This document shows positions 1,262 through 26,411 of a DNA stretch of 26,697 bases, in pieces. The position numbers and the translations under genes were made by a program. The stretch spans positions 1-26,697 of IMG/VR virus record IMGVR_UViG_3300010412_000068. One strand, written 5' to 3'. How positions within the stretch are numbered: position 1 is the stretch's first letter; the number at the start of each line of letters is the position of its first letter. The DNA is from a virus. The notes under the pieces were generated by a model. The model did no database searches. It saw only the letters and a list, made by a program, of their open reading frames with translations, and was not told the origin of the DNA.

Positions 1262-3162
1262 TGCACAAGTCCTAGGCCCATGAGGATGCGATATCTGAAG
1301 GTGTTGTTTATTACCTCATCCTCCACAGCGTATGAACCACTAAAAGATTGTAAATTTCGTGCAGCACCATACGCAGCACGAAGGTCAGCTCCATACTGAT
1401 TGTTGAATGCGTCCGCTACTAATCCAAGCTGCCGCTTGACTAGCTCTGGTGCGTCCTTTTTTACTTTGATTCGTGCTCCAGCGTTAGTAACTTCTACGTC
1501 GAGCCACTCAGCATTCTTCCATGCAAGCCTACCTCCTTGCTCAGTAAACGCCATTCGCGCACTGTAAGCAATGTCAGTAGTTAACTCATCTACTTCATAT
1601 AAGACTGTTCTTTGTACAACTTGGGCGTACGTAGCTGGTACGGAGGCCAGTGCTTTGCTAACCTTTTCGCTAGATAGAGTTCCTAAGAACTGATTTCTAA
1701 AGGCTCTACTTGGCCTATTAACATTGTTTTCCCTGTTCCATGTCATTGTTTCGGCAATGCTAGAAAGCGCAGCCAGCCCCTGCTGGGAACTGCCACGAAG
1801 ATCCCGTGGATTTGAATCAGTAACATCGTCTAGCAACCGCGTTGCAGCGGCCATCTGCTGAATACGGGCAGCCTCTGCCTTGACTCCATCCCCCTCTAGA
1901 TCCTGCTGCTGGCCCGGACGGTTACCGGGAACTGGGAGTACCTCGCCTGCGTCGTTAGTGTATGCTCCCTGATTACCCCATATCCTACCGAGGTCCTGAG
2001 TGAGCTGGTTACTTAGATTTCTACCAAGAAGAAGCGCCTCTGGAGTATCTTTTAGACCATCAAGTGCCTTGACTAGACCAAGGTTAACTGCCAAGGTTGG
2101 GTTGTTCTGAAGCAATGCACGGTAGTCTGCATCTGCGTAGAAGTTTACCTGTGCTCTAGCTTCCTCTGGTGTTCTGGCATCTGCCATCATCTCAAAGTAA
2201 GGCTTCACTGTAGTTTCGTACACCTGATTAAACTGGCGATCCGTCATTGTTGGCACCAGTCTCTTGGCCTCAGCCCTCATTGCCTGCCATTGTGGACCAC
2301 CAGTTCGGTAATCGTACGCAATCGCAGTCTTCTGTTTGTCGAACTGGTTCTGTAGTTCTGGCGTTGTGCTGTATACAGAGTACGGAACAGAGTTGACTTG
2401 ATTAACAAACCCAATTACTCGTGAGTTAAGGGTAGCTAGGAAACCCTTTTCCATAGTGCTGACGAACGCTTCCTGAATCTGTGGCTCAACTAGCTTGTCC
2501 TTCAGATCACCAGTCTCTACCGCATTGCGAAGCGTCTGCAACTCTTGTGCTGCTGCAATTGCTTGGGTACCCTGCCGGTAGAACTCCACAGGATTTCGGT
2601 ACAGCAGAGTGCTGTCGATTCCCAGCCCTATAATCTGGCTATTGATCTTGTCCCAAAAGTCCTTCTGTGCCCTAGCCTCAGATTCCTGTGCTGCAATGAC
2701 AGCCTCTACTGCGGAGCCGATAGGATTGTACCCCTGAGATCTGCTTGCTGCCTGAAGTAGCTCGTCTGCCATCCACGGCTTGCGGGCCATGTGCTCCCTA
2801 AGAATCTGCTCCTGCCTGATCTTTAGTTCTGTTTCAGAGATCTGGCCTGACTTCCTTGCTCGCGTTAGGCGAGTAAGTCTGTCTGCAAACAACTGTAGAT
2901 CCTTGTCAGTCGGAGGATCTTCGCCAGTAAAACCAGAGAAGACATCCTCTTCAGTGGTTAGATCCAACGGCTGATCCAAGAACCGCTGTCGTTCCTGCTC
3001 AAGCTCACCGACTAGCTTGTTCTCGTTGTAGTCCTTGAGTCCTTCGATGGCAATATCTGCCACTTGTCCTACTGCCCTAGCAATAGCACGGGGATCTCCG
3101 GTCTCTGGTCGCCTGAAGTTAGCAACCTGAGCAGGCTGGAGGTTCGGATTTTCAACTGCCAT
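1258..3162 (-). CDS. Internal virion (ejection) protein, 634 aa
   Basis: Large soluble, mostly helical protein with no recognised enzyme motif. Residues about 90-140 hold a charged helical segment with the pattern IRQEQILREHMARKP followed by LLQAAS, a style seen in internal virion proteins of short-tailed phages. The size is of the order of T7 gp15 (about 750 aa), but I could not establish homology by eye. The start is firm: ATG overlaps the TAA of the 1651-aa gene by one base (TAATG), and AGGAG lies about 9 nt upstream. The product is inferred to be packaged in the head and released with DNA to help form the trans-envelope channel, from its place after the gp14-like gene. A copy of the dispersed palindrome at 1678-1691 encodes FLGT. 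Confidence 0.75.
   Translation of the reverse strand: MAVENPNLQPAQVANFRRPETGDPRAIARAVGQVADIAIEGLKDYNENKLVGELEQERQRFLDQPLDLTTEEDVFSGFTGEDPPTDKDLQLFADRLTRLTRARKSGQISETELKIRQEQILREHMARKPWMADELLQAASRSQGYNPIGSAVEAVIAAQESEARAQKDFWDKINSQIIGLGIDSTLLYRNPVEFYRQGTQAIAAAQELQTLRNAVETGDLKDKLVEPQIQEAFVSTMEKGFLATLNSRVIGFVNQVNSVPYSVYSTTPELQNQFDKQKTAIAYDYRTGGPQWQAMRAEAKRLVPTMTDRQFNQVYETTVKPYFEMMADARTPEEARAQVNFYADADYRALLQNNPTLAVNLGLVKALDGLKDTPEALLLGRNLSNQLTQDLGRIWGNQGAYTNDAGEVLPVPGNRPGQQQDLEGDGVKAEAARIQQMAAATRLLDDVTDSNPRDLRGSSQQGLAALSSIAETMTWNRENNVNRPSRAFRNQFLGTLSSEKVSKALASVPATYAQVVQRTVLYEVDELTTDIAYSARMAFTEQGGRLAWKNAEWLDVEVTNAGARIKVKKDAPELVKRQLGLVADAFNNQYGADLRAAYGAARNLQSFSGSYAVEDEVINNTFRYRILMGLGLVQ
1678..1691. 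repeat. Dispersed palindrome copy 2
   Basis: AGTTCCTAAGAACT, inside the 634-aa gene, where the minus strand encodes FLGT. It is 521 bases from copy 1, the closest pair. Confidence 0.8.
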
Positions 3163-6100
3163 TACTGTCTACTCCTAGATAGAATTTTTTGTATCTCTTC
3201 CTCGGAAGCTCCTAGCTGCCTAGCTATAGCTGCTCTGCCCTGTAGGTCCCCTTCTGGTAGGGCCAGTGCCTTGTCCCTAAGGGCTTCGCGCTCCTGCCTA
3301 GTCATCGGACCCCTTGCGGGATTCATCCTTTGTTCTTCCAGCTTCTTGATTGCAGCATCGCTGCCCTCAAGGGTCTGATCCCACAGCTCTCCAGTAGCCT
3401 CAAGACTCTTCTGCTGCTCTCGGAGCATCGTCTCAAGAGCTGGCAAGTCCTCGGGCTCCACGGCATTAGACTGGCGTAGCCTATAGATCAGCCACTCCGT
3501 TGGAGTGGGGGCGTTCTTAGACAGCGCCTGTGTGATGTAGTCTGCTACACCGTCATTCGTCGGCTTCCTTGCGGCTTCAAGCGCATCGAACTTCTCAAGT
3601 ACATAGGTCCTTTCTTCCGGGGGTAGACCCTGCAATACCGCACGCTCAAGCGCAATGCGATTCCGGTAATACTCAGGCGAATAGGTATCGCCCTCTGCAT
3701 AAATCTGGGTAATGTTGAGAATCCTAGCATGGTACTCCGACGCGATCTGGTCCAGTTCCTTCTGGCGTTCTCGCATATCCTTAGTTAGTGCCCACAGTTC
3801 CTTCTGACCCGTGCTTGTAATACCGAATAGCCCCTTAGCTAGCGCCTCTTCACGCGAGGCATTGTACTTATGAGGCACCCCTGCCTGCGACAGAAGCTCC
3901 CCAGTCCTCCAAGCCAACCGGGCCTTAAGGTAATCATTATATCCCGACGCTAGGCCAGCCAGCGTGGCGTCAAGCACGATCTCAAGCTCCTGCTCTGGGG
4001 TCCACTCTGGGAAATCTACCCGCATCATGTCATTGGCAATGCTGGCTGCCTCAATCAGTCGAGAACTAGTCATAAAGGACGGGCCAAGGGCCGTCTCGAC
4101 CATCGTCTTCTTGGTGCCCGCCTCCCAGAAGGAGCGGACAACATTCAAGAAGTTGGCACCCGGAGCCAAGAACTCATCAAATGGGAGATCCAAGTCTGGG
4201 TCGTTGACCGCTTTCTGGATAGCAGCATCAAGAATGATATCCAAGAATCCACCGCTGAGAATATCTACGACAAGTCCGTTAGCGTACTTGTCTAACCCAG
4301 CCTTTACCAAGAACTGTTCTGCCTCTGGCTTGAGTGAGAAGCCCGAAGCACCAAATAGCAGGAACTGCCCAGCCAACAGTTTGCGTGCCTCACCCTTAGT
4401 GAACGACTTGTTCCCAAGCCTACCACCCATACTATCGGGAAGAGCCTGAAGGAACGTCAAGAACACCTTGTGAGTGAACGACATGAACTGCATCGGCAGA
4501 CTTAGGAGGCCGTACTGATACTTCGATGCATTGGCCCGGTGCATAGCTAGGGCATAGTTAGACCCCCGTGCCTGTGCTTCACGCCAATCGGCCTGAGTAA
4601 ACTGTGTTAGCTTCTTGTATCCCTTCTCTGCCTTGATCTTGCGGACTGCCATCATATAAGAAGCAGCCACGTTAAACGACTCACCGGCTTGGAATCCAAA
4701 CTTGTTGAGCGCACGACGCACCGGACCAGCAGATGCTATATCCGCAGCCGACTTACCAATCTGCCCAGCCCTACTGGCCGCGTCTTCGACCGGAGCCTTC
4801 ATTAGATCCGACGCGAAGGTGTGCATATTCACAGCCTCAACAAGTCCTGACCTGTTGAACTGTGCTACGAGTTCGTCGTACTCCTTGAGAGAGACGCCCA
4901 TCATCTTGGCATTCCTAGTTCTTAGGAACTTGTGCTCCTTAAGGGAGCCTGCCATTTCAAGATTCCTACTACGAGCGCCGCTCATCAGCAAGAAGGTATC
5001 CCACTGCCACTTACCAGCGTACGTGGGGTCCAATCCCTGAAGGAATACGTGCTGTGATCCCTGAAGAACAAGCTGCCTCAAGGGCCTAGTCGTCATAAAG
5101 TCGAAGAAGGCAAGGCTCTTCATCCACTCGACGGGGGCAAACTTCTCAGCGTTCCTAGCTATGAGAGTTCCAACCCTCGACCCTTTAGGCAGAACGGTAT
5201 CTTGAAGGAACTCCGCGCCCCGCACAGCGGCACGACGGAAGTTAACGCCGCCCCCGTACAGGCTGCCCTCCATCACTCTGATGTAATCCCACACAGCGTT
5301 TGCTTGCGTAGCCTGTTTAGAGTAGGTTCTGTTCCCCGCTTTAATGGCCTGATCTAGCAGAGTAGAGACCTCAGCAGAAGTCTTCTTTGTAATATCTACG
5401 CCAAGTAGCGCCCCATACTGCTGGCTAAATTGCTCCTTGAGCGAACGCACAAGATCTTCAGTCGCCAACTGTCGGCCAAGAATCCTAGAGGTACGCTGTA
5501 GTGCATTGATTGGATCAACGATTTCAGCCCTGCCGCCTGTAGTAGACGCCAATGGGTCTGCCAACCTATTGTCGAAGAAGATCCTACCCTCAAGCTGCAT
5601 CTGCTCCAAGTCGCGGGCCACCCTATCTGAATCACTCAGCCTCGGATCAATCTCGTCTATCACATAGGACACGCTATCGTCTCCGCGCTCTCGGTTGAGA
5701 CGCTCTATCATGTCCTGTGCACTGCGACGATCCGGTGCCACCGCAACTGCGGTAGCGTGCTGGGTGGTGCGGCCATTGATGGACGCTCCCTGCGTCACCC
5801 TTCGGATGAAGATATTGTCCTTGTAGAGCCTAGGGTAGTAGCCCGGAGTGTACTGTAGCGGAAACTTGTTAAGTCCCTCAAGCCTAGTCCCAGCCTGCGG
5901 ATTGTGTAGTACCAGCGTACTCAGCTTAGATCCTGACGTACTAACAGGAATTGGCAGTTCAAGGACTGCCCCGTTATTCTTGTAGAGTTCCTTAAGTTCT
6001 GCCCTAGAAAGATTGACCTCTTGTAGGGTATGTGGATCTAGAATAGTATAAACTCCAGCGTTGGAGTACCTCGACATATCATCCAACGATACCGGCCTGC

Positions 6101-8117
6101 CGTGGTACATAGTCTTACCGGCACGAAGAGTGCGATAGTTTCTGCCAGTAAACTCCCGATACAACCTGTCATTATTGATGTGGTATACCGTATCATAGTA
6201 CTGACGAAGGTAGTACCACCCAGTCAATTCCTTGTTACTAGAGTCTGGGAAAGCCTCTTGCAGCTCATCCCAAGAGGGGACACGGCCTTCCCTTTTGCCA
6301 AAAGCTTCAGTCCACTCGTACATCTCACCAACAGTACGACGCTGGCTCCAGCTCAAATCCTTGAAGACTGGGGCAACCAGTTGATCCATACGCGCAGCGA
6401 GCGCCTGCTCACTAAGGAACGCCCGCACACCCTTAAGATATATTTCTGGAGAGAGTACAGACGAGGGTGTGCCGAACCACAGAGACGCCCGCCCAAGCCA
6501 CGTTGGTGACATGACCGGATCTGTCCCGAAGAGAAGCTTGTCCTCAGGCCGGAAGAAGTACTCTTGGTCGTATTGGACATAGAACTCTCCCTGCCTATTT
6601 GGAATGCCTTCAATGCCCTCGCGGGCAGCGATTGACTTAAGCTCGCCAGCACCATTGACCTCAAGGATCTTGACCTTCTGGCCCGACTCGTCAAGGCTCT
6701 TGGCTAGATCCCTAGCTGCGTCAATAGACGAGAAGCCATGCGTGTCGCTTGAGCCAATAACACTCCCAAAGCGAACCCCACTACGATCATCGAGGATACT
6801 AATAGAAGATCTACCAAGCCGCAAGCGACCCGCGAAAGTAGACTCGATCTCTTGTGCTTTCCTTTCAACGGCACCTGTGATCTCCTGATTAGTGAAGATA
6901 TCCTCAGAGGCATTCTTGCGAAGCTCATCAATGTCTCCCCTAACCCGCTCAATATGGGCAGCCGCCTGTGCCACACCATCTGGTAGATTGTCCGCATTTC
7001 GTACGGGAGGGCGGGGAAGCTGTGACTCTGCCACATCCGTGTTCTTGATGCCCCAACTAGATAGCGTGGGTGCGTTTTGTAGCTGAGTCATCAGCTCAGT
7101 GAGCAGCCTCTTCGTTACTCGGTTGTTTGTGGAAGCTGCGATCTTGAGTGCTCCCATCTTGCCAAGTTTTCTGATGCCAGCAAGCCCCGCACCAAAGTTA
7201 AAGACTGTCCCTAAGTTACGTAGCGTGCGATCCAACCAGTCATTAGGATTATTCTGGAACAGCACTTCGTCGGTAAGGACAGACCACTTAATGTCTAGTG
7301 CAACGATATCTGCAATAGCTGGGTTGTTCGCAAACTCATGCCGGAACTTACGAAGGGCTTGCCTCTTCTCCTCAGGAGACAGAGACACTAGCCACTCACG
7401 AAGATTCTGCATGGCTTCACCATTAAGCATCTGCGAAGGCATAAGGTAGTCTGGCATTCCCATTGCTTTGGCAACGTACACACCATGACCCTCATCCCAT
7501 CCGGGGATGAAGAAGCCAAGACCCTTCAAGAAATAACTGATAGTCCCGCCCACCGTATCGGGAGGCTTAACCTCTTGAGAGATAGCCCGAAGCTCTATTT
7601 CAATGTCGTTGTTAAGTCTGGTTATGTCTCTTGCGATCTCAATAGTCCGCTCAAGATTCCAGTGTTGAATAGACATCTCATGCGGGTTTGTTGCATCTAG
7701 TTTAGCGGCAGCTTCAAGAATGCCCCGCACAGCCATTTCAATCTGCGGCATACTATCGTTCGCTGCATAGTTAGCAACGACATCTGTCGCAATTTGAGCG
7801 TGCTCTGGATTGGAGAAATCCACTTGAACCGGAAACGATCTGCTCTGTCTTGCGACCCTATCATAGATCTCTTCCTTAGCCTGATCTCCCCGTGCGTTCT
7901 TGTAGACTTGAACTTGCCAATCAAAGTCTTCGCTTTTCCCGTTCTTTTCGTAAATGGCACGAAAGTCTTCAATGTCTCTGATCGACCCCTGTCCTTGTGA
8001 TGCGGCCTGTATAAAGGCAGCGGTAGTAGCCCTAGTTCCGGGCAACCCATTATCAAGGTGCGCTACGGGATCTCCCTCAATCTCACGAGGACGCTCGTTC
8101 TCACGAATAGTCTTCAT
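3162..8117 (-). CDS. Giant internal virion (ejection) protein, 1651 aa
   Basis: Longest gene in the window, with size and position like T7 gp16 (about 1300 aa), the large ejected protein that forms part of the periplasmic channel. No lytic transglycosylase signature was recognised at the N-terminus, unlike T7 gp16. Visible segments include a hydrophobic Gly-rich stretch near residue 305-330 (FNFGAGLAG), a Tyr-rich motif near 755 (YTPGYYPRLYKDNIF), a Phe-rich region near 1000 and an amphipathic hydrophobic region near 1200 (LSLPMQFMSFTHKVFLTFL). The C-terminal 250 residues are highly charged and probably helical. The start overlaps the previous stop (ATGA), with GGAG about 10 nt upstream. A dispersed palindrome at 4917-4930 encodes FLRT. 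The assignment rests on size, context and composition. Confidence 0.8.
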   Translation of the reverse strand: MKTIRENERPREIEGDPVAHLDNGLPGTRATTAAFIQAASQGQGSIRDIEDFRAIYEKNGKSEDFDWQVQVYKNARGDQAKEEIYDRVARQSRSFPVQVDFSNPEHAQIATDVVANYAANDSMPQIEMAVRGILEAAAKLDATNPHEMSIQHWNLERTIEIARDITRLNNDIEIELRAISQEVKPPDTVGGTISYFLKGLGFFIPGWDEGHGVYVAKAMGMPDYLMPSQMLNGEAMQNLREWLVSLSPEEKRQALRKFRHEFANNPAIADIVALDIKWSVLTDEVLFQNNPNDWLDRTLRNLGTVFNFGAGLAGIRKLGKMGALKIAASTNNRVTKRLLTELMTQLQNAPTLSSWGIKNTDVAESQLPRPPVRNADNLPDGVAQAAAHIERVRGDIDELRKNASEDIFTNQEITGAVERKAQEIESTFAGRLRLGRSSISILDDRSGVRFGSVIGSSDTHGFSSIDAARDLAKSLDESGQKVKILEVNGAGELKSIAAREGIEGIPNRQGEFYVQYDQEYFFRPEDKLLFGTDPVMSPTWLGRASLWFGTPSSVLSPEIYLKGVRAFLSEQALAARMDQLVAPVFKDLSWSQRRTVGEMYEWTEAFGKREGRVPSWDELQEAFPDSSNKELTGWYYLRQYYDTVYHINNDRLYREFTGRNYRTLRAGKTMYHGRPVSLDDMSRYSNAGVYTILDPHTLQEVNLSRAELKELYKNNGAVLELPIPVSTSGSKLSTLVLHNPQAGTRLEGLNKFPLQYTPGYYPRLYKDNIFIRRVTQGASINGRTTQHATAVAVAPDRRSAQDMIERLNRERGDDSVSYVIDEIDPRLSDSDRVARDLEQMQLEGRIFFDNRLADPLASTTGGRAEIVDPINALQRTSRILGRQLATEDLVRSLKEQFSQQYGALLGVDITKKTSAEVSTLLDQAIKAGNRTYSKQATQANAVWDYIRVMEGSLYGGGVNFRRAAVRGAEFLQDTVLPKGSRVGTLIARNAEKFAPVEWMKSLAFFDFMTTRPLRQLVLQGSQHVFLQGLDPTYAGKWQWDTFLLMSGARSRNLEMAGSLKEHKFLRTRNAKMMGVSLKEYDELVAQFNRSGLVEAVNMHTFASDLMKAPVEDAASRAGQIGKSAADIASAGPVRRALNKFGFQAGESFNVAASYMMAVRKIKAEKGYKKLTQFTQADWREAQARGSNYALAMHRANASKYQYGLLSLPMQFMSFTHKVFLTFLQALPDSMGGRLGNKSFTKGEARKLLAGQFLLFGASGFSLKPEAEQFLVKAGLDKYANGLVVDILSGGFLDIILDAAIQKAVNDPDLDLPFDEFLAPGANFLNVVRSFWEAGTKKTMVETALGPSFMTSSRLIEAASIANDMMRVDFPEWTPEQELEIVLDATLAGLASGYNDYLKARLAWRTGELLSQAGVPHKYNASREEALAKGLFGITSTGQKELWALTKDMRERQKELDQIASEYHARILNITQIYAEGDTYSPEYYRNRIALERAVLQGLPPEERTYVLEKFDALEAARKPTNDGVADYITQALSKNAPTPTEWLIYRLRQSNAVEPEDLPALETMLREQQKSLEATGELWDQTLEGSDAAIKKLEEQRMNPARGPMTRQEREALRDKALALPEGDLQGRAAIARQLGASEEEIQKILSRSRQ
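4917..4930. repeat. Dispersed palindrome copy 3
   Basis: AGTTCTTAGGAACT, inside the 1651-aa gene, encoding FLRT. Confidence 0.8.
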
Positions 8118-17486: not shown

Positions 17487-19037
17487 TTATGCCCGTACTC
17501 CGCCGAAGCGCGGATGATAGACAACATTTGTTTTCCGTTTCATCTGATAGTTCCTAGGAACTACTGCTATAGAGATAGCTGACGCGAGAGCGTCTTTAAG
17601 GTCATCGTGTCGAGGCTTATACTGGGTAACCTCAAGTTCGAGTTCCTCGCATACACCCCCGTACCAATGCCAAATAGATCCATTCTCATAACGGGGTCGA
17701 AGGACCGCATCAATACGTTCCTCTTTTGTGCCCATAGTGCGTGTCGGGCGGAACTTGTCGAACGATAGAGGGACGCCTGCTTGTTTGACATAGACTGTTT
17801 TAAGCTCCTCCACGATAGCGTCTTGTGCAACAGTGACTTCGGCCCGTATCCTACGGAACCCCCACTTAGCATAGAGCTTGTATATGTGTTCCCAGTAATC
17901 ACCGATCTTCTTTGTTTTGAATCTGTCTATATCTAGGACGTAGATATTGTTCTCGTGATCTACGCCGATTACTACTACGGCAGTCCAGTCTGCTGCGTTC
18001 GTAACCGAAAATGCAAAGTCGATTGCTGCGCTAACATTGAGCACGCGGTCCCGGTAAAACCAACGACCATCCTTTTGGGATATGCCCTTGCGGTCATAGT
18101 ATTGAAAAAGATCTTTCGATATGCCTGCTTCATCGGAGGCATTAGGATTATTGTAATACTGTGCATAAAACTGGGTCTTGTCGAGGTACTGGGCTCGTTT
18201 CTTAGCTAGAATCTCTTGATTGAATCCGAACCAACGCCCGTCCCCTCGCTGCATACGAGGCCAAAGGTACTCCCCCGTACCGTCCCCACTATCCTCTACC
18301 TCTCTCTGAAATACTTCATAGACTGGGGTAGACGAAACCTTGTTGCCATACTCATCAAAGATTTCAGCTTCCATCTCAAGGAGCTGCTGGTACAAATCGG
18401 CTGGGTGGTATCGCGTACCGACAACCCACTCTCGTGCGTCTGACGATTCGATAGAAGCCAGCAGAGAGTATTGACTCGCAACCTTCTCCCTTCCCTCTTT
18501 TGTGTACGCATTCTCTTGTACAACTACGTCATCCAGCACCGCGATGTTACAATGCATCCCGGTAATCGAAGTGGTAAGCCCTGCCGTAAACACCGTGGGA
18601 TCTCGTACGCCCTCAGCCGCACGTAGCGGATGATCGACTTCGATCTCACTGTTTGTCCACTTCGACCGTTTCCCCTCATCGGGGTGCACCATGTCGGGCC
18701 AATACTTTGCATACTTCTTTGACGATAGAATATCCTTAATTGCCTTGAGCTGCTTCTCTGCCAAGTTAGAGGTAGAAGAAATGTACAGCACTGTGACGGC
18801 TGGGTTGCGGGTAATCTCCCACGCAACACGGTATGCCATCATAGCCGATTTTTGGTGGTCTCGGGGCAAGAGTGCCATCTGGTGAGACTTGGCTTCGTCT
18901 CGTGTCCACCATCTTGCAAGGTCTTCATGTACCTTGCCTAGTACTCTATGAGGCGCAACAAGCCGGATAAACGCCAGTAGATCCTGCTCCGCAGCCTGCC
19001 GAATCTGCTCGACCTTAGTCAGCGGAGCCTTTGACAT
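17487..19037 (-). CDS. Terminase large subunit (packaging ATPase/nuclease), 516 aa
   Basis: Motor that cuts and translocates phage DNA into the procapsid. The N-terminal ATPase has a variant Walker A, LLPRDHQKS at residues 56-64, and a Walker B, NIAVLDD at 164-170; VGTRYH is a likely coupling motif. The C-terminal RNase H-like nuclease shows its first acidic residue in AAIDFAFS (Asp near 340) and a late one in RHDDLKDALA (near 479). The length is typical of large terminases. I place the start at ATG 19037, 11 nt after GGGAGG; a longer form from GTG 19046 would have only a 2-nt spacing. It overlaps the upstream adhesin gene by 23 nt. A 16-bp perfect palindrome at 17548-17563 lies near its 3' end. 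Confidence 0.94.
   Translation of the reverse strand: MSKAPLTKVEQIRQAAEQDLLAFIRLVAPHRVLGKVHEDLARWWTRDEAKSHQMALLPRDHQKSAMMAYRVAWEITRNPAVTVLYISSTSNLAEKQLKAIKDILSSKKYAKYWPDMVHPDEGKRSKWTNSEIEVDHPLRAAEGVRDPTVFTAGLTTSITGMHCNIAVLDDVVVQENAYTKEGREKVASQYSLLASIESSDAREWVVGTRYHPADLYQQLLEMEAEIFDEYGNKVSSTPVYEVFQREVEDSGDGTGEYLWPRMQRGDGRWFGFNQEILAKKRAQYLDKTQFYAQYYNNPNASDEAGISKDLFQYYDRKGISQKDGRWFYRDRVLNVSAAIDFAFSVTNAADWTAVVVIGVDHENNIYVLDIDRFKTKKIGDYWEHIYKLYAKWGFRRIRAEVTVAQDAIVEELKTVYVKQAGVPLSFDKFRPTRTMGTKEERIDAVLRPRYENGSIWHWYGGVCEELELEVTQYKPRHDDLKDALASAISIAVVPRNYQMKRKTNVVYHPRFGGVRA
17548..17563. repeat. Dispersed palindrome copy 6 (longest, 16 bp)
   Basis: TAGTTCCTAGGAACTA, a perfect 16-bp palindrome, near the 3' end of the terminase gene. 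Here the minus strand encodes VPRN, a different reading phase from copies 2-5. Confidence 0.85.
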
Positions 19038-19809
19038 TAGGCGCACTACCTCCCGATATCCAATTTACAGTACCACCCAACGAACGAACATAATATCCTG
19101 CGGCACCTCCGTCACCGGGGTTGTAGCCACCATCACTACCGTTTTGGCCCGCAGCTCCATACGCTCCACCGTCGCCGCCATTGAGAAAAGCCGTACCTCC
19201 AGCTCCGCCCGCACCAGCCGCTCCGCCCGTTCCAGCAGCACCATCCTGAGCACTCCCTAATATACTGCTACCAGCTTCCCCTCCAAGACTACCACCAGCG
19301 CCTCCGCCACCACCAGAACCGGGCGCAACCTCTGGTTCATACGGGCGAACATTAACAAACGAGAGGTCTCCACCTCCGCCGCCTCCGCCGCCGCCCCAGA
19401 CGTTACCAGAGGCGTTTGTGATATTTAGCGTGGAGCCTGAGCCGGGGCCTACTATAGCATTGCCCCCAGCCCCACCGTTCATGTAAAATCCCCATCCACC
19501 AAAATTATCATCATAACCTTCGCCCCCATTACCACCCCTTCCTAAGATGTAGCCATTGTTAGTCAGGTCAATCGTGGTGCCACCCGGCATACCACTAAGA
19601 TCCATAGCGGGCTTGGAGGTAGTGGTAGAATAAACCTCAACTGCGGCATTGATAGTAATCGTGATGGTCATTGGAATAATGACCGTCTCGATGCCTTCCT
19701 GTATCGCAAGCTGGTCTAGGAGATTCCACTCGGCTGTGTTGGCAGCAATGGTGAACGTTGCCGTAGAAGCATGAGCATCAAGCTGCTGCCCAAAAAACGG
19801 GAATAGCAT
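19015..19809 (-). CDS. Glycine-rich adhesin / tail tip-like protein, 264 aa
   Basis: Probable receptor-binding component. Residues 1-90 are beta-rich (TATFTIAANTAEWNLLD, then VIIPMTITITINAAVEVYST) and lead into NNGYILGRGGNGGEG, a motif style that often opens glycine-rich tips of phage tail proteins. Residues about 90-250 are extremely Gly-rich, with a run of nine consecutive Gly and many GG or GAGG repeats, the composition expected of polyglycine-II sandwich adhesins such as the T4-group gp38 type. The start overlaps the 230-aa gene stop by one base (TAATG), with AAGGA about 9 nt upstream. The 3' end overlaps the terminase start. No homology search was possible, so the adhesin role is inferred from composition and location. 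Confidence 0.75.
   Translation of the reverse strand: MLFPFFGQQLDAHASTATFTIAANTAEWNLLDQLAIQEGIETVIIPMTITITINAAVEVYSTTTSKPAMDLSGMPGGTTIDLTNNGYILGRGGNGGEGYDDNFGGWGFYMNGGAGGNAIVGPGSGSTLNITNASGNVWGGGGGGGGGDLSFVNVRPYEPEVAPGSGGGGGAGGSLGGEAGSSILGSAQDGAAGTGGAAGAGGAGGTAFLNGGDGGAYGAAGQNGSDGGYNPGDGGAAGYYVRSLGGTVNWISGGSAPNVKGSAD
19049..19054 (-). promoter_or_regulatory. Ribosome binding site deciding the terminase start
   Basis: GGGAGG on the minus strand, inside the end of the glycine-rich gene. Its spacing is 11 nt to ATG 19037 and only 2 nt to the alternative GTG 19046, which favours the ATG. Confidence 0.6.
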
Positions 19810-20501
19810 TAGCTAATGTCCTTAAGTACCGTTGTAATCCAGATGTCGTTTGCGCTATCATAGGTAGCCTGAATCAAGTCGATCTCGCCTATACCAGTAG
19901 AAAGAATCGGCGCACTCCCACCCTGAAACTTATACTTGGTACCCCATGTAATCACTCGGCCACCTGTGCCGTCCTGCTGGACACGGATGTGCAGCGTCAT
20001 GGTCGTGCCAGCACTCGGAGGATTAAGGGGGTTGTTCAGTGTAAATGACTGAGTGGGTGTGAGCGTGAAGGAATTGCCGTCCTCGCAATTGACATCGACT
20101 GTTGCTCCATCAACAAGTGCCACCTCTGTCGTAAGGACTGGTTGGGTAAAGATTGCTTCCTGATTCTGGAACAGGACAGAACCCGCAGGGAACGACGGTG
20201 CAACTGTAAATGTCCAAGCCGCCGAAATAGTCGCGGTAGCATTGACTCTCGGATAGTCCGCTGCAACATATCCGCCGAGTTGAGCAGTGTTCGTGGCATT
20301 AACGGAGTTCGCATTTGTAATGTTCCCACAGTTGACGATGTTCCAGCCACCCATATCGAAGTCATTCTGCATAGCATTCGGGGCCGTACCGTCACGGAAG
20401 ACGATGCGTTCCATGATAGCTTCGATAGCGTCGAAGTTTGCATTGAGCTGAGTAGTCGTGTAGTACCCAGAGTTAATTGTAGTCAGCGTAAGTTTAGCCA
20501 T
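19809..20501 (-). CDS. Short tail fiber-like protein, paralogue of the 197-aa protein, 230 aa
   Basis: Starts MAKLTLTTINSGYYTTTQLN and carries an N-terminal helix then the motif FRDGTAPNAMQNDFDMGGWN, the same type found at the start of many podovirus fiber and spike proteins. Residues about 165-230 form a beta-rich C-terminal domain with QQDGTGGRVITWGTKYKFQG and DLIQATYDSANDIWIT. Both ends match the 197-aa protein encoded at 22764-23357, so the two are paralogues with different middle parts. GAGGT sits about 7 nt upstream of the ATG. It is likely a virion tail component that modulates host binding or adapts another fiber; this is inference. Confidence 0.78.
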   Translation of the reverse strand: MAKLTLTTINSGYYTTTQLNANFDAIEAIMERIVFRDGTAPNAMQNDFDMGGWNIVNCGNITNANSVNATNTAQLGGYVAADYPRVNATATISAAWTFTVAPSFPAGSVLFQNQEAIFTQPVLTTEVALVDGATVDVNCEDGNSFTLTPTQSFTLNNPLNPPSAGTTMTLHIRVQQDGTGGRVITWGTKYKFQGGSAPILSTGIGEIDLIQATYDSANDIWITTVLKDIS

Positions 20502-20511
20502 TTAGTTTACC

Positions 20512-22761
20512 TCAGTTGGCATTCTTCCAATCAAATGCTACGTGATTGGTGGGGGGTGAATACTGAAAAGGTCCGCGAGTGTTTATCTCAGTAGATGGGT
20601 TGCTGGTGTTGTTGTTTGTGCTAGTAAACGAAAGCACAGGAACATCTATCAAACCAGTTATAACTCCAGAAGCAACTAAGCTACCATTGAGGAAGGTCTG
20701 TACCGTTGCCGTGTCAGCATCATAAGCCAACCCGATGACATCTCCTTGAATAAAGCGCCTTCCGACACCGCTACCCGTATCAACATCTGCTCCACTAGTT
20801 CTGATGCGGGCTGTGATCTCAGTAAAAACGTCATCGTCGGTCAACCCTCCCCACTGTTTGGTCCCAAACAAACCGTTGTACTGGAGAATATCTTCATTGG
20901 CATCTACATAGGTAGCTGCTGCTATACCAAAAATAAAGAAAGTAGTTGCTGCACCCGCGCTGACAACTTTGTACTCTAGATAATACTTCCCCGGAGCCCC
21001 AAACTTAGAGCCGGGATTCCAACCCCTAACAATTCCACCCACTACATTGCGGGCATAGTCTGGTCCAACTGCTTCTATTACAGTCTTATCTCCCGTTTGT
21101 CTGTAAATACCATTATCCATCTTGTATGGAGTGGTGAGGTTTCGTGGAATGTAGTACGGGAATTTTCCAGAGTTATCACTAAACGCAAGGTTAATAAGAG
21201 TGGTTCTTTCGTCCGAGCTTTGGTATGTCGTATAACTCTTAGACCATGAGTGAAACGGACTCATCTTCATTTGATTAAACTTCGCATCTTGATTGACTGC
21301 GGTAGTGGTTGTTACTACATTTGTGTCTGGGCACCCCCATCCGGGGATGATACCAAGGTAGGTTTGTTTAACGGCTGGTCTTGCCACAGACCCCGTTGAT
21401 TGAAAGTCTGGGTATCCCGATGGTATGCTTCCCTGTCCCTCCGCTGGCGGCACAGCAGAAAACGAGTTCCCAAAGCCAGAGTAGATTTTGTAGGTACCCG
21501 CAGTTTTGACATCTAAGAAAACCCAGTAACACTGTCCTGCTGTATTGTCAACAAAGTTGAACGTTGAAGTTCCGCCGGTAATGCCGCGTATAAAAATATC
21601 GGCATTGTTCCCATTCTCTACAGCGGCTGTATATGGTCTCTGCCAAAAGTTGTAGGCCCCATAGCCACGCATTACCTTTGTTGCCTGAGCCCAAGATCCT
21701 TTGCCTATGCCCATTAGTTGATATGCGCCGGTATACGTAGACGAATCCCCATTCCCAGCGTAGCAAATCAGGGTGTGCTTGCCGGGAGCTAGCGTCACCT
21801 CTTTGTAGATGAAGCGCGGAAGCCGCTCGGTATATGTGCCGTTCAGACAGACGTATTGAAATACGTTTGGATAAACTTCGGTTACTTCCAGAAAACCTGA
21901 TGTTCCTACCGCATCACAGTCTACAAAAGACACGCCCTGAGCAGCGTTAACAGGTCTATCAGTCCAGTAATTGTGACCGAGGGCCATGTCGTAGTTGTCA
22001 TTTTTTGATCCGGTAATAAAGTCAAACCCACCAACTGCACCAACGTCGCCTAGGCCATTCGGGTCCCAGAAGTCAACTTCAAGGTACTGTTGAGGCGGCT
22101 CAGTGGCTCCAGTGAAGGCGTAGTTACCGTTGCCAAGCAACACCATCCAATTTGGCTTTCTAGCCCTATCATAAAATAGATAGTCGCTTATAGGTTTTGG
22201 AAGATTCGTACCACCAGCAGCGGTGAAAGATGCAAAGTCGCTCGCACTACAGTTAATGGCAAGACTCTCATCCCCTGAATACCAAGCCCAGTTACTTGGC
22301 ATGTTATTGTTCTTTATCCACAGCAAAGTATTTGAAGTTGGTATGCTGTTGCCAGAGTAACTAAAGTCTTGGAGGGGATAGTCTGCTGGAACATTCCTCA
22401 TGCACCATTTCATAGCACCCCAAAACGTATTGCCGACAGATGGGAAGGCTACCCCGGCATCATCTCCTTCCTGCAAAACACAATACCAAAGATGGGTGAA
22501 TCTTTGGTTTCCTTCTGGGAAAGTTGCCGGGTCCCAAGTAAACCCGGCGTTAATCTGTCCATTAATAAACTGCCACCGTGGTCTTGCTGTTAGGTCCGTA
22601 GCCGTCGAATGGAAATAGGATGTGTAAAATAAGAACATCAAGTCTCCCGGCTGCCAGCCGGGGCACGGAACAATTGTGCCGGGATGATCCCCCGTAATCG
22701 TCTCGCTTCCAATAACTAGTGGATCTGACGATGGGCCGGGAATCCAGAACGTCGGGTACAT
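20512..22761 (-). CDS. Large tail protein with C-terminal SPRY-like domain, 749 aa
   Basis: Probable tail fiber or receptor-binding protein. Most of it is beta-rich and aromatic (many Trp, Tyr and Gly). Residues about 586-735 resemble a SPRY (B30.2-type) sandwich domain: GKYYLEYKVVSAG at its start, then FFIFGIAAATY, and the telling GDVIGLAYDADTATVQTFLN followed by GSLVASG. SPRY domains bind proteins or sugars and occur in some phage tail proteins. The N-terminal 580 residues were not assigned. ATG is two bases after the previous stop, with only a weak Shine-Dalgarno, so coupling to the 197-aa gene is likely. It sits between the two paralogous short fiber genes. Confidence 0.75.
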   Translation of the reverse strand: MYPTFWIPGPSSDPLVIGSETITGDHPGTIVPCPGWQPGDLMFLFYTSYFHSTATDLTARPRWQFINGQINAGFTWDPATFPEGNQRFTHLWYCVLQEGDDAGVAFPSVGNTFWGAMKWCMRNVPADYPLQDFSYSGNSIPTSNTLLWIKNNNMPSNWAWYSGDESLAINCSASDFASFTAAGGTNLPKPISDYLFYDRARKPNWMVLLGNGNYAFTGATEPPQQYLEVDFWDPNGLGDVGAVGGFDFITGSKNDNYDMALGHNYWTDRPVNAAQGVSFVDCDAVGTSGFLEVTEVYPNVFQYVCLNGTYTERLPRFIYKEVTLAPGKHTLICYAGNGDSSTYTGAYQLMGIGKGSWAQATKVMRGYGAYNFWQRPYTAAVENGNNADIFIRGITGGTSTFNFVDNTAGQCYWVFLDVKTAGTYKIYSGFGNSFSAVPPAEGQGSIPSGYPDFQSTGSVARPAVKQTYLGIIPGWGCPDTNVVTTTTAVNQDAKFNQMKMSPFHSWSKSYTTYQSSDERTTLINLAFSDNSGKFPYYIPRNLTTPYKMDNGIYRQTGDKTVIEAVGPDYARNVVGGIVRGWNPGSKFGAPGKYYLEYKVVSAGAATTFFIFGIAAATYVDANEDILQYNGLFGTKQWGGLTDDDVFTEITARIRTSGADVDTGSGVGRRFIQGDVIGLAYDADTATVQTFLNGSLVASGVITGLIDVPVLSFTSTNNNTSNPSTEINTRGPFQYSPPTNHVAFDWKNAN

Positions 22762-22763
22762 GC

Positions 22764-23357
22764 TTACTGGAAATCCGTGTTGTGTGCACAGTACCAGACA
22801 TCATTGATAGAGTCGTACTGGCAAGACACTAGATCTACTGCATTAGCCGCAGAGCTAATCGTGATAGCGTTCCCACCCGGAAACTTAAATGCCGCATTCC
22901 ATGTGACGGTGTAACCTCCCGTCCCATTCTGCTTGATGATAAAGTTAATGACCTGTCCGCTAAGTCCGTTTGTCGGACCAGTCGGCTTTCCGATAGTCAG
23001 GTCCTGATCCAACAGAATGTAGTGAACATTAGAGTCACATTGAATAGGTGTGTAAACGCCACCGTTAATGGTGGCGGTATACATTAGGGTGGCGGCTGCC
23101 TTCTCATACTGGTTGCACTGGTTGAGGTACGTAAGGTTGTCGATGCCGCCCGCTACATACTCTAGGCACCCGACATTGATGAGGCAGTAGCCGTTCATGT
23201 CGAGGTCTTTATCCATGAAGTTCGGGGTTGTCCCATCTCTAGATAGGGTATTCTCAACGGCAGCTTCAATCAATGCCATGTTATCATTGAACGTAGTGAT
23301 GAGGGTTTGGAGATCTACCCCAGTAACTGCCACATCAGCCAACACAAGCTTCGCCAT
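22764..23357 (-). CDS. Short tail fiber-like protein, 197 aa
   Basis: Starts MAKLVLADVAVTG, with a helical segment, then LSRDGTTPNFMDKDLDMNGY, the fiber-family motif shared with the 230-aa paralogue. The C-terminal domain (about residues 135-197) has KQNGTGGYTVTWNAAFKFPG and LVSCQYDSINDVWY, again aligned with the paralogue. The middle part differs and is richer in Cys and Tyr. GAGGA is about 9 nt upstream of the ATG, which overlaps the previous stop by one base (TAATG). Likely a tail or fiber component; whether the two paralogues assemble together is not known. Confidence 0.78.
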   Translation of the reverse strand: MAKLVLADVAVTGVDLQTLITTFNDNMALIEAAVENTLSRDGTTPNFMDKDLDMNGYCLINVGCLEYVAGGIDNLTYLNQCNQYEKAAATLMYTATINGGVYTPIQCDSNVHYILLDQDLTIGKPTGPTNGLSGQVINFIIKQNGTGGYTVTWNAAFKFPGGNAITISSAANAVDLVSCQYDSINDVWYCAHNTDFQ

Positions 23358-23680
23358 TAGATTGCTTCCTCAATCTGAAATCTGCCAGACTCTGCAACCT
23401 GAAGTACCGCAATGTGCGTTACCTCTGGGGGTGTCACCAAGTACTCAACCCCTGCCGGGAACAGAGTACTCGATGTCGTAGCCGTAACTCCCGCCGTTCC
23501 AAACTCAATGTAGCAATCTTTGGTAGCAGAGATACGAGCGACCTCCCCCTTGACCAACCCAGCCGGGAGTGCAAGAGTTGCACTGACTCCAGTAGTCGTG
23601 GCCGTAGCGCGGACGCCAGAAAGCCTGAGAGCTTGGAGCGGGGCTCCAGACTGATCTCTCAGCAAATTAATCTTAGCCAT
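23357..23680 (-). CDS. Small beta-rich virion-type protein, 107 aa
   Basis: The protein begins MAKINLLRDQSGAPLQALRL and is nearly all beta strand, with VARISATKDCYIEFGTAGVT and SSTLFPAGVEYLVTPPEVTH. Small proteins of this style are common in tail regions of environmental phages, but no function is recognised. The start at 23680 is chosen because AAGGAG lies 5 nt upstream and the ATG follows the 909-aa gene stop by one base. A longer form from TTG 23737 would overlap that gene by 56 nt and lacks a good Shine-Dalgarno. It shares the MAK-L opening with the two short fiber proteins downstream. Confidence 0.78.
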   Translation of the reverse strand: MAKINLLRDQSGAPLQALRLSGVRATATTTGVSATLALPAGLVKGEVARISATKDCYIEFGTAGVTATTSSTLFPAGVEYLVTPPEVTHIAVLQVAESGRFQIEEAI

Positions 23681-23681
23681 C

Positions 23682-26411
23682 TTATCTCCTTCCGATACGT
23701 CCGAGTCTGGACATAACTCGACGGACTCGTCCAGCAAACGCGCCCGGTGTAAATGGAATGGTCAGCGTAGCAAGTATTACGGAGCCCACCGCACTGAAAG
23801 CGCGAACCACTGGAACAATTAGAGACTCTGCTAGGGTTGCTGTGCCCGTAGCAACGAAACTAAATGATTTACTAATTCCTCTGGTAAGAGAGCTTGTGGC
23901 TCCTGCGGAGAATGAAAGTAGCTTGGATACAGCCTTCTGTAGTGTCGTGGTAGCGGTACCTGTATACGTAAAGTTTTCGACATAGGTAACAACGAACGTG
24001 AGGGCCGCAGTCCCAGATGCCGCAAACGACCTGACGATATCATTGACGCCACTTATAAAATCCTTCGCAAACGATACAGCACCCGACGCTGCGTATGCGA
24101 ATGCCTTTCCTATCGACTTCAGGGCGGTACTTGTTCCGGTCGCGGTGTACTGTAGGCTTATAGAAATACTCCTCAAAAGAGCACTCGTCCCCGCACCCGT
24201 GTACGCTAGAACTTTCCCCACAGACTTCGAGATCTGGGCCGAGCCTGTAGCCGAATACGCTAGTACCAGCAGTTTGACCTTTTGGGTTGCTGTAACTAGC
24301 GTCCCTGTTGCGCTATAGGCAAAAGATCTTAGGAACGTACCGGCTTTCAATAAAGCCGAGGTTCCGGTTGCACCATAGTTCAACAGTTTACTTAGACTAC
24401 GTTCGAGAGAAATAGTTCCCAACGCAGAATAAGTAAGGCTCTTCAAGTACGAGTGCGACTTCGTGAGGAGGGCGCTACCCGTTCCAGTAAAGCTAAGAGC
24501 CAGAAGCTTTACCTTCTGCGTCAGGGTCGCAAGCGATCCCGTTGCACTATAGACTAGAGAAAGACCAACCTCTTTTAGAAGGTTCGATGTACCTGTTCCG
24601 GCGTAATTTAAACTGCGGACAAAGGTAGATGTGAGCGTGAGAGAGGCCCCACCTGTTCCAGTGTAAACCAGCGAACGGAGGTAGCTGGCGGCTTTTGCAA
24701 AGGCCGAGGCCCCTGTTGCACTGTACGTAAAAGATCTTAAGTAGGACTTACCGTAGGTAAGTGCACTTGTCCCAACCCCTGAGTAGTCCAGAGATCGGAG
24801 GTATGTCGCGCTCCTCTCTAAGAGAGAGCTGCCACTTCCAGTAAATGAGAACGTCCGTGATAGCACCTGCTGTAGTGCAGTTGCCACAGAACCCGTTCCG
24901 GCATATGAAAGCAGTTTACCAACTATGCGCTCTACTGTTGAGGTGCCCGTTCCAGTATAACTAAATGAGCGTACCCGCGTAAGTGCACGGGCAAAGGCAG
25001 AACTTCCTACGCCACTGAAAGAGAATGTTCTATCAAAGAACTTTCCTTTAGCTAGCGTTGGCGTTCCAGTTCCACTATACACATACGAACGCAGGAACGA
25101 GGTGGCTTTTGTTAAGGCACTCGTTCCAGTTCCTGAATACGCAAAAGACTTCGCAAGAGAAAGCAGCTTCGTTAGAGCACTTGTTCCCGTTCCTGCGTAG
25201 CTTTTTACCAGACCGACTTGTTTTAGCGGTGTGCTGGCCGTGCCAGTTCCGCTAAAGGTGTGGTTCTCGTTGTACTGCGTTCCGCCGGTCCCGACCGTGA
25301 CCATCGGGTAGCCGGATGCCGGAACTCGTGTAGTACCGTCCGGGGCGAGGAAGGAGAACTCAATGGTATCCCCATTCGTTACCGTTCCGCTGTCAAGGGA
25401 GAGCGAGAACGCATACTCAGCGGAGTCGTCGGTCCATGTGCGCGAAGCGGGGCCAGCTGCGGCAGTCTCAAAGAACTCGTTCCATGTCTGCTGCTGTGTC
25501 GCAACCCCGGTGATGGCACTCAGCAGGTTGTTGAAGTTCTGCTGGTCGGTGTTGGCCGCACTCGCTACCAAACGGGCTGCACCAGAAATGTCGTCAACAG
25601 GTACCCATCCACCGCCATTGACACGCTGATAGAGGGTAAAGCCGCCGGTATTGCCGATATTCGCGTCCGCACTCTCGCCAGCGTTCATCACGAGGATGAA
25701 GGGATTGCTGACGGTGCGGGAGATGTTGGTGTCCTCAGCCGCTAGCGCGGTGGGAGCATCAATGTCCGACTCATCGTAGAACCTGTAGTGCCCGCTTACC
25801 CACGTTGCGGGTACGGCTGGCGTGTAGGTCAGAACGACATCACACGCATCTATTTCCCCGTAAAGGCCATCCTTAGCCATGTTCTGGCTATAGTTATCAA
25901 CGTCGAACATGAAAACCGGGTAATCGGGGAAACCCGGCGCAGTTATACCAGAAACGGCTGTCGGGCCTGTAAATACCCCCGTCCAGCTGGAGGATGTAGC
26001 CATATTCATCATCCGCCATGCACCGATGGGGTACGTCCCACCAACGGGGTAGCCTGTGCCGCCCGTGGTCCATTGCGGGATGATGCCGAAACAGCACCTC
26101 CACTCGCCGCTATCGTCAACGCGGCTTACTGTGCGGAATCGCACCCTCACGTTGACGTTCGTAACGAGCGCCCACGCAAAGTCGCTCGGATAAGAACCGC
26201 CCGAAGGGTACAGCTTCAGTATGCCATAACCTTCAGGAGCCCCATCCGCGTTTAGCTGGATGCCTGCTGTGCTGTCGGCGCTATCGTAGCCCTCATCCAT
26301 CGCCTCCAGATTGGCGGTCGTGATGGAGGCTGGGATGATAACATTGTTACCGTTGTTACTACATTCGGTTGATGCAGTACTTGTGGTCGGAAGGAGTGTT
26401 AGAGTTGCCAC
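23682..26411 (-). CDS. Repeat-rich tail fiber-like protein, 909 aa
   Basis: Three parts. Residues 1-210 are a beta-rich head (NVNVRVRFRTVSRVDDSGEW, then a Trp/Gly-rich stretch). Residues 230-380 look like a fiber domain of a type common in phage tail proteins (FTLYQRVNGGGWVPVDD ... TNGDTIEFSFLAPDG). Residues 386-884 are about 25 tandem degenerate repeats of 16-25 aa with core YSGTGTSALTKA and a linking YLRS-like strand. The C-terminus is strongly basic (FAGRVRRVMSRLGRIGRR). The start is GTG 26411, with AGGAG 8 nt upstream, 11 nt after the previous gene. It is likely a long fiber or stalk, from the repeats and the adjacent fiber genes; no enzyme motif was seen. Confidence 0.8.
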   Translation of the reverse strand: MATLTLLPTTSTASTECSNNGNNVIIPASITTANLEAMDEGYDSADSTAGIQLNADGAPEGYGILKLYPSGGSYPSDFAWALVTNVNVRVRFRTVSRVDDSGEWRCCFGIIPQWTTGGTGYPVGGTYPIGAWRMMNMATSSSWTGVFTGPTAVSGITAPGFPDYPVFMFDVDNYSQNMAKDGLYGEIDACDVVLTYTPAVPATWVSGHYRFYDESDIDAPTALAAEDTNISRTVSNPFILVMNAGESADANIGNTGGFTLYQRVNGGGWVPVDDISGAARLVASAANTDQQNFNNLLSAITGVATQQQTWNEFFETAAAGPASRTWTDDSAEYAFSLSLDSGTVTNGDTIEFSFLAPDGTTRVPASGYPMVTVGTGGTQYNENHTFSGTGTASTPLKQVGLVKSYAGTGTSALTKLLSLAKSFAYSGTGTSALTKATSFLRSYVYSGTGTPTLAKGKFFDRTFSFSGVGSSAFARALTRVRSFSYTGTGTSTVERIVGKLLSYAGTGSVATALQQVLSRTFSFTGSGSSLLERSATYLRSLDYSGVGTSALTYGKSYLRSFTYSATGASAFAKAASYLRSLVYTGTGGASLTLTSTFVRSLNYAGTGTSNLLKEVGLSLVYSATGSLATLTQKVKLLALSFTGTGSALLTKSHSYLKSLTYSALGTISLERSLSKLLNYGATGTSALLKAGTFLRSFAYSATGTLVTATQKVKLLVLAYSATGSAQISKSVGKVLAYTGAGTSALLRSISISLQYTATGTSTALKSIGKAFAYAASGAVSFAKDFISGVNDIVRSFAASGTAALTFVVTYVENFTYTGTATTTLQKAVSKLLSFSAGATSSLTRGISKSFSFVATGTATLAESLIVPVVRAFSAVGSVILATLTIPFTPGAFAGRVRRVMSRLGRIGRR
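23686..23691 (-). promoter_or_regulatory. Ribosome binding site deciding the 23680 start
   Basis: AAGGAG on the minus strand, 5 nt before ATG 23680, inside the last codons of the repeat-fiber gene. It supports the 107-aa form of the downstream protein. Confidence 0.75.
23760..25256 (-). repeat. Coding tandem array, about 25 units of ~54-60 bp
   Basis: Within the 909-aa gene (residues 386-884), each unit encodes a pattern such as FAYSGTGTSALTKATSFLRS. By hand count most units are 18 or 20 residues, some 16 or 22, one 25. Nearly all are even in length, which would keep beta-strand alternation in register. DNA copies have diverged more than the protein pattern, so the array is old or held by protein selection. 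Confidence 0.85.

Follow-up and report, generated by a model that had tools for sequence, protein, structure and literature searches.

We describe a 909-residue phage protein whose repeats keep two faces of different composition apart over most of their length, and propose that these repeats form a loop-poor beta stalk, the protein being a virion component encoded in the tail-fibre (host-recognition) module of a Zobellviridae-like podovirus; to this reading we assign a probability of roughly 0.6. The two-faced array itself is real and well supported; phage repeat proteins of its kind are widespread but lack a solved fold. The gene lies in one IMG/VR virus record, a linear fragment of 26,697 bases that was analysed whole and is referred to here as the window (Table 1).

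Table 1. Repeat protein, its parts and the adjoining genes (positions in the window)
Feature	Position	Strand	Remarks
909-aa repeat protein, fibre module	23682..26411	-	GTG start, GGAG ribosome-binding site shortly before
N-terminal non-repetitive region, residues 1-383	25263..26411	-	acidic: 40 D/E, 14 K/R
26 repeats, residues 384-890	23742..25262	-	basic: 45 K/R, 10 D/E
First unit, 19 residues (384-402)	25206..25262	-	
Phase-unbroken stretch, residues 403-770	24102..25205	-	368 residues, all 37 Lys/Arg at odd positions
Single 23-residue unit, residues 771-793	24033..24101	-	sole odd-length step in array after first unit
Basic C-terminal tail AFAGRVRRVMSRLGRIGRR, residues 891-909	23685..23741	-	7 Arg, no acidic residue
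Small downstream gene (MAKINLLRDQSG...)	23357..23680	-	ATG one base past the repeat gene's stop codon
Rest of fibre module	19015..23357	-	197-aa and 230-aa tail-fibre-like proteins, 749-aa protein, Gp38-type adhesin
Gp38-type tail-fibre adhesin	19015-19809	-	Pfam PF05268, 45.9 bits vs cut-off 25
Terminase large subunit (terL)	17487..19046	-	~60% identical to Zobellviridae/Cobavirinae

Periodicity and face alternation

The repeats follow the consensus [LF]-S-[YF]-S-G-T-G-T-S-A-L-T-[KR]-A-(x-S)-[VYF]-L-[RK]-S. An earlier sequence-only reading had counted about 25 degenerate units in this protein, in good agreement with the 26 delimited here by self-similarity and by a gapless unit finder; the latter recovered all 26 unit starts. 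BLOSUM self-similarity reached z = 14.7 at an offset of 20 and 9.7 at 18, with sharp peaks at 18, 20, 38, 40, 58 and 60 and significantly negative values at the odd offsets 17 and 21, and the same test detected no periodicity in the N-terminal 376 residues.

From first to last, the spacings are 19, 20, 20, 20, 20, 18, 20, 20, 20, 20, 20, 18, 20, 20, 18, 20, 20, 18, 18, 18, 23, 20, 18, 18 and 20, that is, fifteen of 20, eight of 18 and one each of 19 and 23, making 23 of 25 even. The lengths of 16, 18, 20 and 22 with a single 25 that had been read off previously therefore hold for 18 and 20; units of 16, 22 and 25 were not found, and 19 and 23 were seen instead. Because most units are exactly 20 residues long, the number of even lengths carries little weight by itself: among the window units of other lengths 8 of 10 are even (p = 0.055), and the 19- and 23-residue units break parity, a point against an even-length rule.

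Firm evidence for in/out alternation comes from the segregation of residues between the two faces. Over residues 403-770, Lys and Arg occupy 37 odd and no even positions, large hydrophobic residues 81 odd and 34 even positions, and Ala, Ser and Thr 31 odd and 128 even positions, so that the even positions are 70% Ala/Ser/Thr; past the 23-residue unit, the odd/even pattern restarts in unit phase. When unit positions were treated as exchangeable in an exact position-permutation test, the Ala/Ser/Thr split gave p = 1.9e-4 for the window, and the related loci L060, L020 and L085, which have a similar face split, gave 6.5e-5, 6e-3 and 6e-5, respectively. The alternation that the earlier reading had drawn from even lengths is thus borne out, by face segregation rather than by the length count. 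Such a split is what a two-faced extended chain, held through every turn, would give.

Units share on average 33% of their residues, and codon identity at equal residues of different units is 0.281, compared with 0.295 expected from codon usage. The codons have thus fully diverged, and at the DNA level the array shows no tandem repeat; the array is therefore old, and its pattern has been selected and maintained at the protein level.

Genomic setting, relatives and the basic tail

At about 60% identity to its counterparts in Lentibacter, Roseobacter and Celeribacter podoviruses of the Zobellviridae, TerL marks the window phage as a Zobellviridae relative. Neighbours of the repeat gene encode TerL, a portal and a major capsid protein, tail proteins and, at 3162-8117, internal virion proteins. 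The repeat gene itself belongs to the variable tail-fibre module, which lies upstream of terL and has the Gp38-type adhesin close by, and this position beyond terL among fibre genes is that of the tail-fibre module of Zobellviridae-like podoviruses. In cobaviruses, the stretch from terL to the genome end is variable and encodes tail fibres and connectors as well as tail assembly proteins (PMC6775973). Besides the adhesin and the repeat protein, the module of the window includes two proteins that match tail-fibre profiles, and from gene position and annotation we infer that the repeat protein is probably part of the virion.

Several smaller observations concern this module. The genes at 19809-20501 and 22764-23357 encode paralogous small tail-fibre-like proteins with a common N-terminal family (phrog_18671), both within the one module. 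The adhesin (PF05268) sits in a podovirus fibre module immediately before terL; Gp38 adhesins of this family are known from T-even myoviruses. In locus L301, a copy of the 230-aa tail-fibre-like protein, 60% identical to it, is encoded next to a Gp38-like gene.

Among the relatives, L060, L020 and L085 were found through a DNA pattern, and L302 and L312 through terL, that is, without selection for repeats. The repeat gene of L060, which encodes a basic C-terminus, is followed by genes for a putative major capsid protein and tail tubular proteins. The L312 protein has 247 residues, is encoded some 270 bases before terL and shows eight spacings of 20 and one of 22 and the ending VRRRRRM; in L302 the spacings are 20 (five times), 24 and 23, and the ending is LFKQLRRYFITLFRTKRH. 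In L305 and L307, basic tails occur without the window-type repeat. Both 20-residue repeats and basic tails therefore belong to the locus near terL, though not always together. In the place of the window's repeat gene, L305 (762-1088) carries a 109-aa protein with LYGGARxLYGSF repeats and a basic tail. In L302 (1478-3016) an Ig-like domain is apparently split over the ORFs 1478-2200 and 2207-3016, in what looks like a frameshift, whether real or from sequencing.

The cultured Zobellviridae phages MEP401 and MEP402 encode, in the same module, a 271-aa protein with 20-residue LTGTGT repeats, in both phages lacking the Lys/Arg face and the Arg-rich tail. The version from Methylophilales phage MEP401 (gp59, WBF78112.1, annotated as a tail protein) resembles the window protein in its 20-residue GTGT-anchored repeats, its module upstream of terL and its family; however, it has about nine units, lacks both the 18-residue units and the Lys/Arg face, and ends in a domain of minor tail proteins where the window protein has its basic tail. 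Unit number, which the sequence-only reading had proposed to compare between phages, is 26 in the window protein, 18 (main units) in L060 and nine or so in gp59. A tblastn search of 50,697 phage records with the whole protein and with 215 residues of its repeats gave no match, the repeats being possibly hidden by the low-complexity filter; a related-locus search with the 909-aa protein returned none, and a DNA-pattern scan of genome contigs gave two stretches, neither containing the repeat.

The Arg-rich tail noticed in the earlier reading is real, although it lies just outside the span then given. Residues 892-908 are predicted as a helix, at low confidence, in the full-length AlphaFold2 model, and the helical moment marks the tail as amphipathic in the window (p = 0.013) and in L060 (p = 0.024), but not in L305 or L312. 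Its last codons, AGG AGA (23685-23690), both Arg, form part of the Shine-Dalgarno sequence of the next gene. We considered and rejected the tail as a mere by-product of that signal, with which only these two Arg codons overlap; the five remaining Arg codons are outside it, and relatives use different codons. Given that a basic C-terminal tail recurs in the podoviral relatives L060, L302 and L312 and, differently built, in L305 and L307, it can be taken as a real feature of this podovirus group. Homologues of the small downstream gene directly follow the basic-tailed gene in L302/L303 and L305. A conserved basic C-terminus combined with differing N-termini mildly favours C-terminal anchoring; the usual anchor of a fibre is N-terminal, and anchoring by a C-terminal helix would be the reverse.

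Predicted fold and competing explanations

An AlphaFold2 monomer of ten units, run with five related rows, reached pLDDT 65 and pTM 0.61 and consists almost entirely of strand and turn, with strand breaks and turns at matching unit positions. In the full-length monomer (mean pLDDT 47) this strand pattern recurs and the N-terminus is poorly modelled; residues 1-383 are an orphan in sequence, with an unreliable predicted fold (pLDDT mostly 25-45). The two findings that were to count against the sequence-only reading, disorder and lack of a consistent period, did not arise. Its suggestion of a long regular beta stalk or solenoid holds in part, with strands in the monomer at medium confidence; Foldseek against PDB and viral models returned no significant fold match.

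We favour a long, stiff, loop-poor beta stalk as the structure of the repeat region. Each 18- or 20-residue unit would be nearly all extended, with tight turns near G-T (positions 7-8) and T-K (12-13), one face being small (Ser/Thr/Ala) and the opposite one aromatic or aliphatic with regularly spaced Lys/Arg. An insertion or deletion of one residue would flip both faces of all downstream sequence, and units would change length by two because a single-residue change would swap these faces. Attached to the tail or the capsid by one end and contacting the cell by the opposite one, the stalk would hold the N-terminal domains at a distance from the basic helix at the C-terminus. The beta fold, the stalk role and this reason for even lengths are what we infer from the combined evidence, and further points count against them: Lys/Arg sharing a side with Phe/Tyr/Leu is unusual for a buried core, AlphaFold2 models the repeats with no more than medium confidence and does poorly on the N-terminus, and the MEP401 repeats show no Lys/Arg segregation.

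How such a stalk would be built can be envisaged in two ways. A monomeric beta-solenoid, with one unit per coil stacked in parallel into a rod of about 12 nm as in DUF2807/GIN-domain adhesins, is a realistic possibility. The strand-turn-strand pattern of the AlphaFold2 monomer is as in a coil, and the weak Foldseek PDB matches are mostly solenoids, including the solved adhesin/lipoprotein structures 3jx8 and 3pet (E 6.3-6.6, query TM-score 0.39-0.44). 3jx8, whose turns are also [GS]SG, is in addition the sole PDB match of the repeat profile, and its turning up by both fold and profile is a lead rather than a test. The window repeats and the DUF2807/head GIN solenoids have in common a G-S-G/G-T-G turn after a hydrophobic-x-hydrophobic strand and about 20 residues per coil. 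Nevertheless, none of these matches reaches significance (E = 0.63 for sequence, 6.6 for fold), the window protein does not match the DUF2807/GIN domain family (PF10988) at E<=1, and coil lengths in these solenoids include 19 and 21: the spacings of 3jx8 are 21, 21, 20, 19, 20 and 18, so that a free solenoid tolerates odd lengths.

An intertwined homotrimeric stalk, a triple-stranded beta-helix like the T4 gp5 spike, would explain even-only lengths, since mutually wound chains forbid loops, and we hold it as a tentative alternative; the rod would then measure 25-37 nm. Trimeric beta stalks occur in phage spikes and fibres, that of T4 gp5 being built from VxGxxxxx octads (PMC4576200), and both the fibre context of the gene and the alternation kept through every turn agree with such an arrangement. 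Set against this, the likeness to gp5 is that of a phage beta stalk made from short repeats (PMC4576200), whereas the window has 18/20-residue units of another consensus from which the octad is absent, and the monomer model adopts its regular pattern alone.

An action of the basic face and the tail helix on membranes, on lipopolysaccharide or on nucleic acid in place of a stalk role, for instance as a surface-binding polycation, is unlikely. The excess of Lys/Arg over Asp/Glu in the repeats and the cationic amphipathic helix indicated for the tail by its moment would suit such a role, but the gene is in the fibre module and not among the internal virion proteins, and the repeats of L312 and MEP401 carry no similar one-sided charge. 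A flexible low-complexity linker without fixed fold, its repeats the product of compositional drift, would fit the medium AlphaFold2 confidence and the predominance of small residues, and is made very improbable by the strict Lys/Arg parity over 368 residues, the same face split in divergent relatives, the regular aromatic positions and a protein pattern kept while codons are saturated.

Comparable repeats in other phages

The earlier reading had not recognised the kind of repeat. This stands insofar as no solved structure recognisable by sequence was found for the repeats and the 909-aa protein matched no Pfam or NCBIfam family (none at E<=1 in Pfam), but the repeats are covered by the profile of phrog_23524, and similar GTG-anchored repeats occur in many phage-contig proteins. 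The unnamed phrog_23524 family of phage proteins, without assigned function, matches the window protein in three stretches (E = 5e-16), as well as L060 (2e-12), L020 (1e-8) and L160 (7e-4), at the level of the repeats only, leaving the N-terminus and tail of the window protein uncovered. Literature searches found no description of such repeats in phage fibres.

We scanned 35 non-redundant viral-contig repeat ORFs with a unit finder that was trained anew for every protein on its own sequence. Three collagen-like ORFs had unit lengths in multiples of 3, and the others mostly 18, 20, 22, 24 or 26; the collagen-like pattern, with Gly at every third residue and lengths in multiples of 3, is not that of the 18/20-residue window units. 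After exclusion of spacings of 18 and 20, which were selected by the search patterns, and of one 10+13-type ORF, 49 spacings were even and 16 odd (p = 2.5e-5, an optimistic value as spacings within a protein are non-independent). The TGVxGTGxVG, ASGTGTATGVG and TETGTGTDTLGVA repeats of phage-contig proteins resemble those of the window in their GTG anchor and in units of 18, 20, 22 and 24, but differ in consensus, and are likened by pattern, not by descent.

These findings raise the idea of an undescribed large class of phage stalks, quantised in length by two-residue steps as one loop-free and possibly trimeric beta fold, with distinct sequence families under one rule and, in the podovirus group, anchorage by the conserved basic C-terminal helix; as a whole we regard this as doubtful. 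Should the two-residue rule turn out to be general and to go with a single fold, the finding would carry more weight. Similar repeats are common in the fibre and tail proteins of phages but are left unexplained by the profile libraries used. If the two-face rule holds, the sequence could serve to constrain the fold and the number of units to estimate the length of a stalk, and stalks of this type would become candidates for designed rods; the virion-binding end, once identified, would tell where to seek the receptor-binding part in this podovirus group.

Some candidates from these searches were set aside. Most patterned viral matches were chance or other GTG repeats, and phmmer matches between other GTG repeats and PDB chains seem to reflect composition rather than homology. 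A basic tail is no general property of GTG repeat proteins, only 3 of 25 complete C-termini being basic against a background of 8%. Among the remaining repeat proteins, L231, L239, L235, L242, L245 and L278 have TGVxGTGxVG repeats with 20- and 22-residue, mostly even units, and a single protein of L056 (4143-7103) carries two kinds of 20-residue repeat in series, DTQASSDSVTRVVTASRTAT and then VVVPATATGTYSFSGSSTAT.
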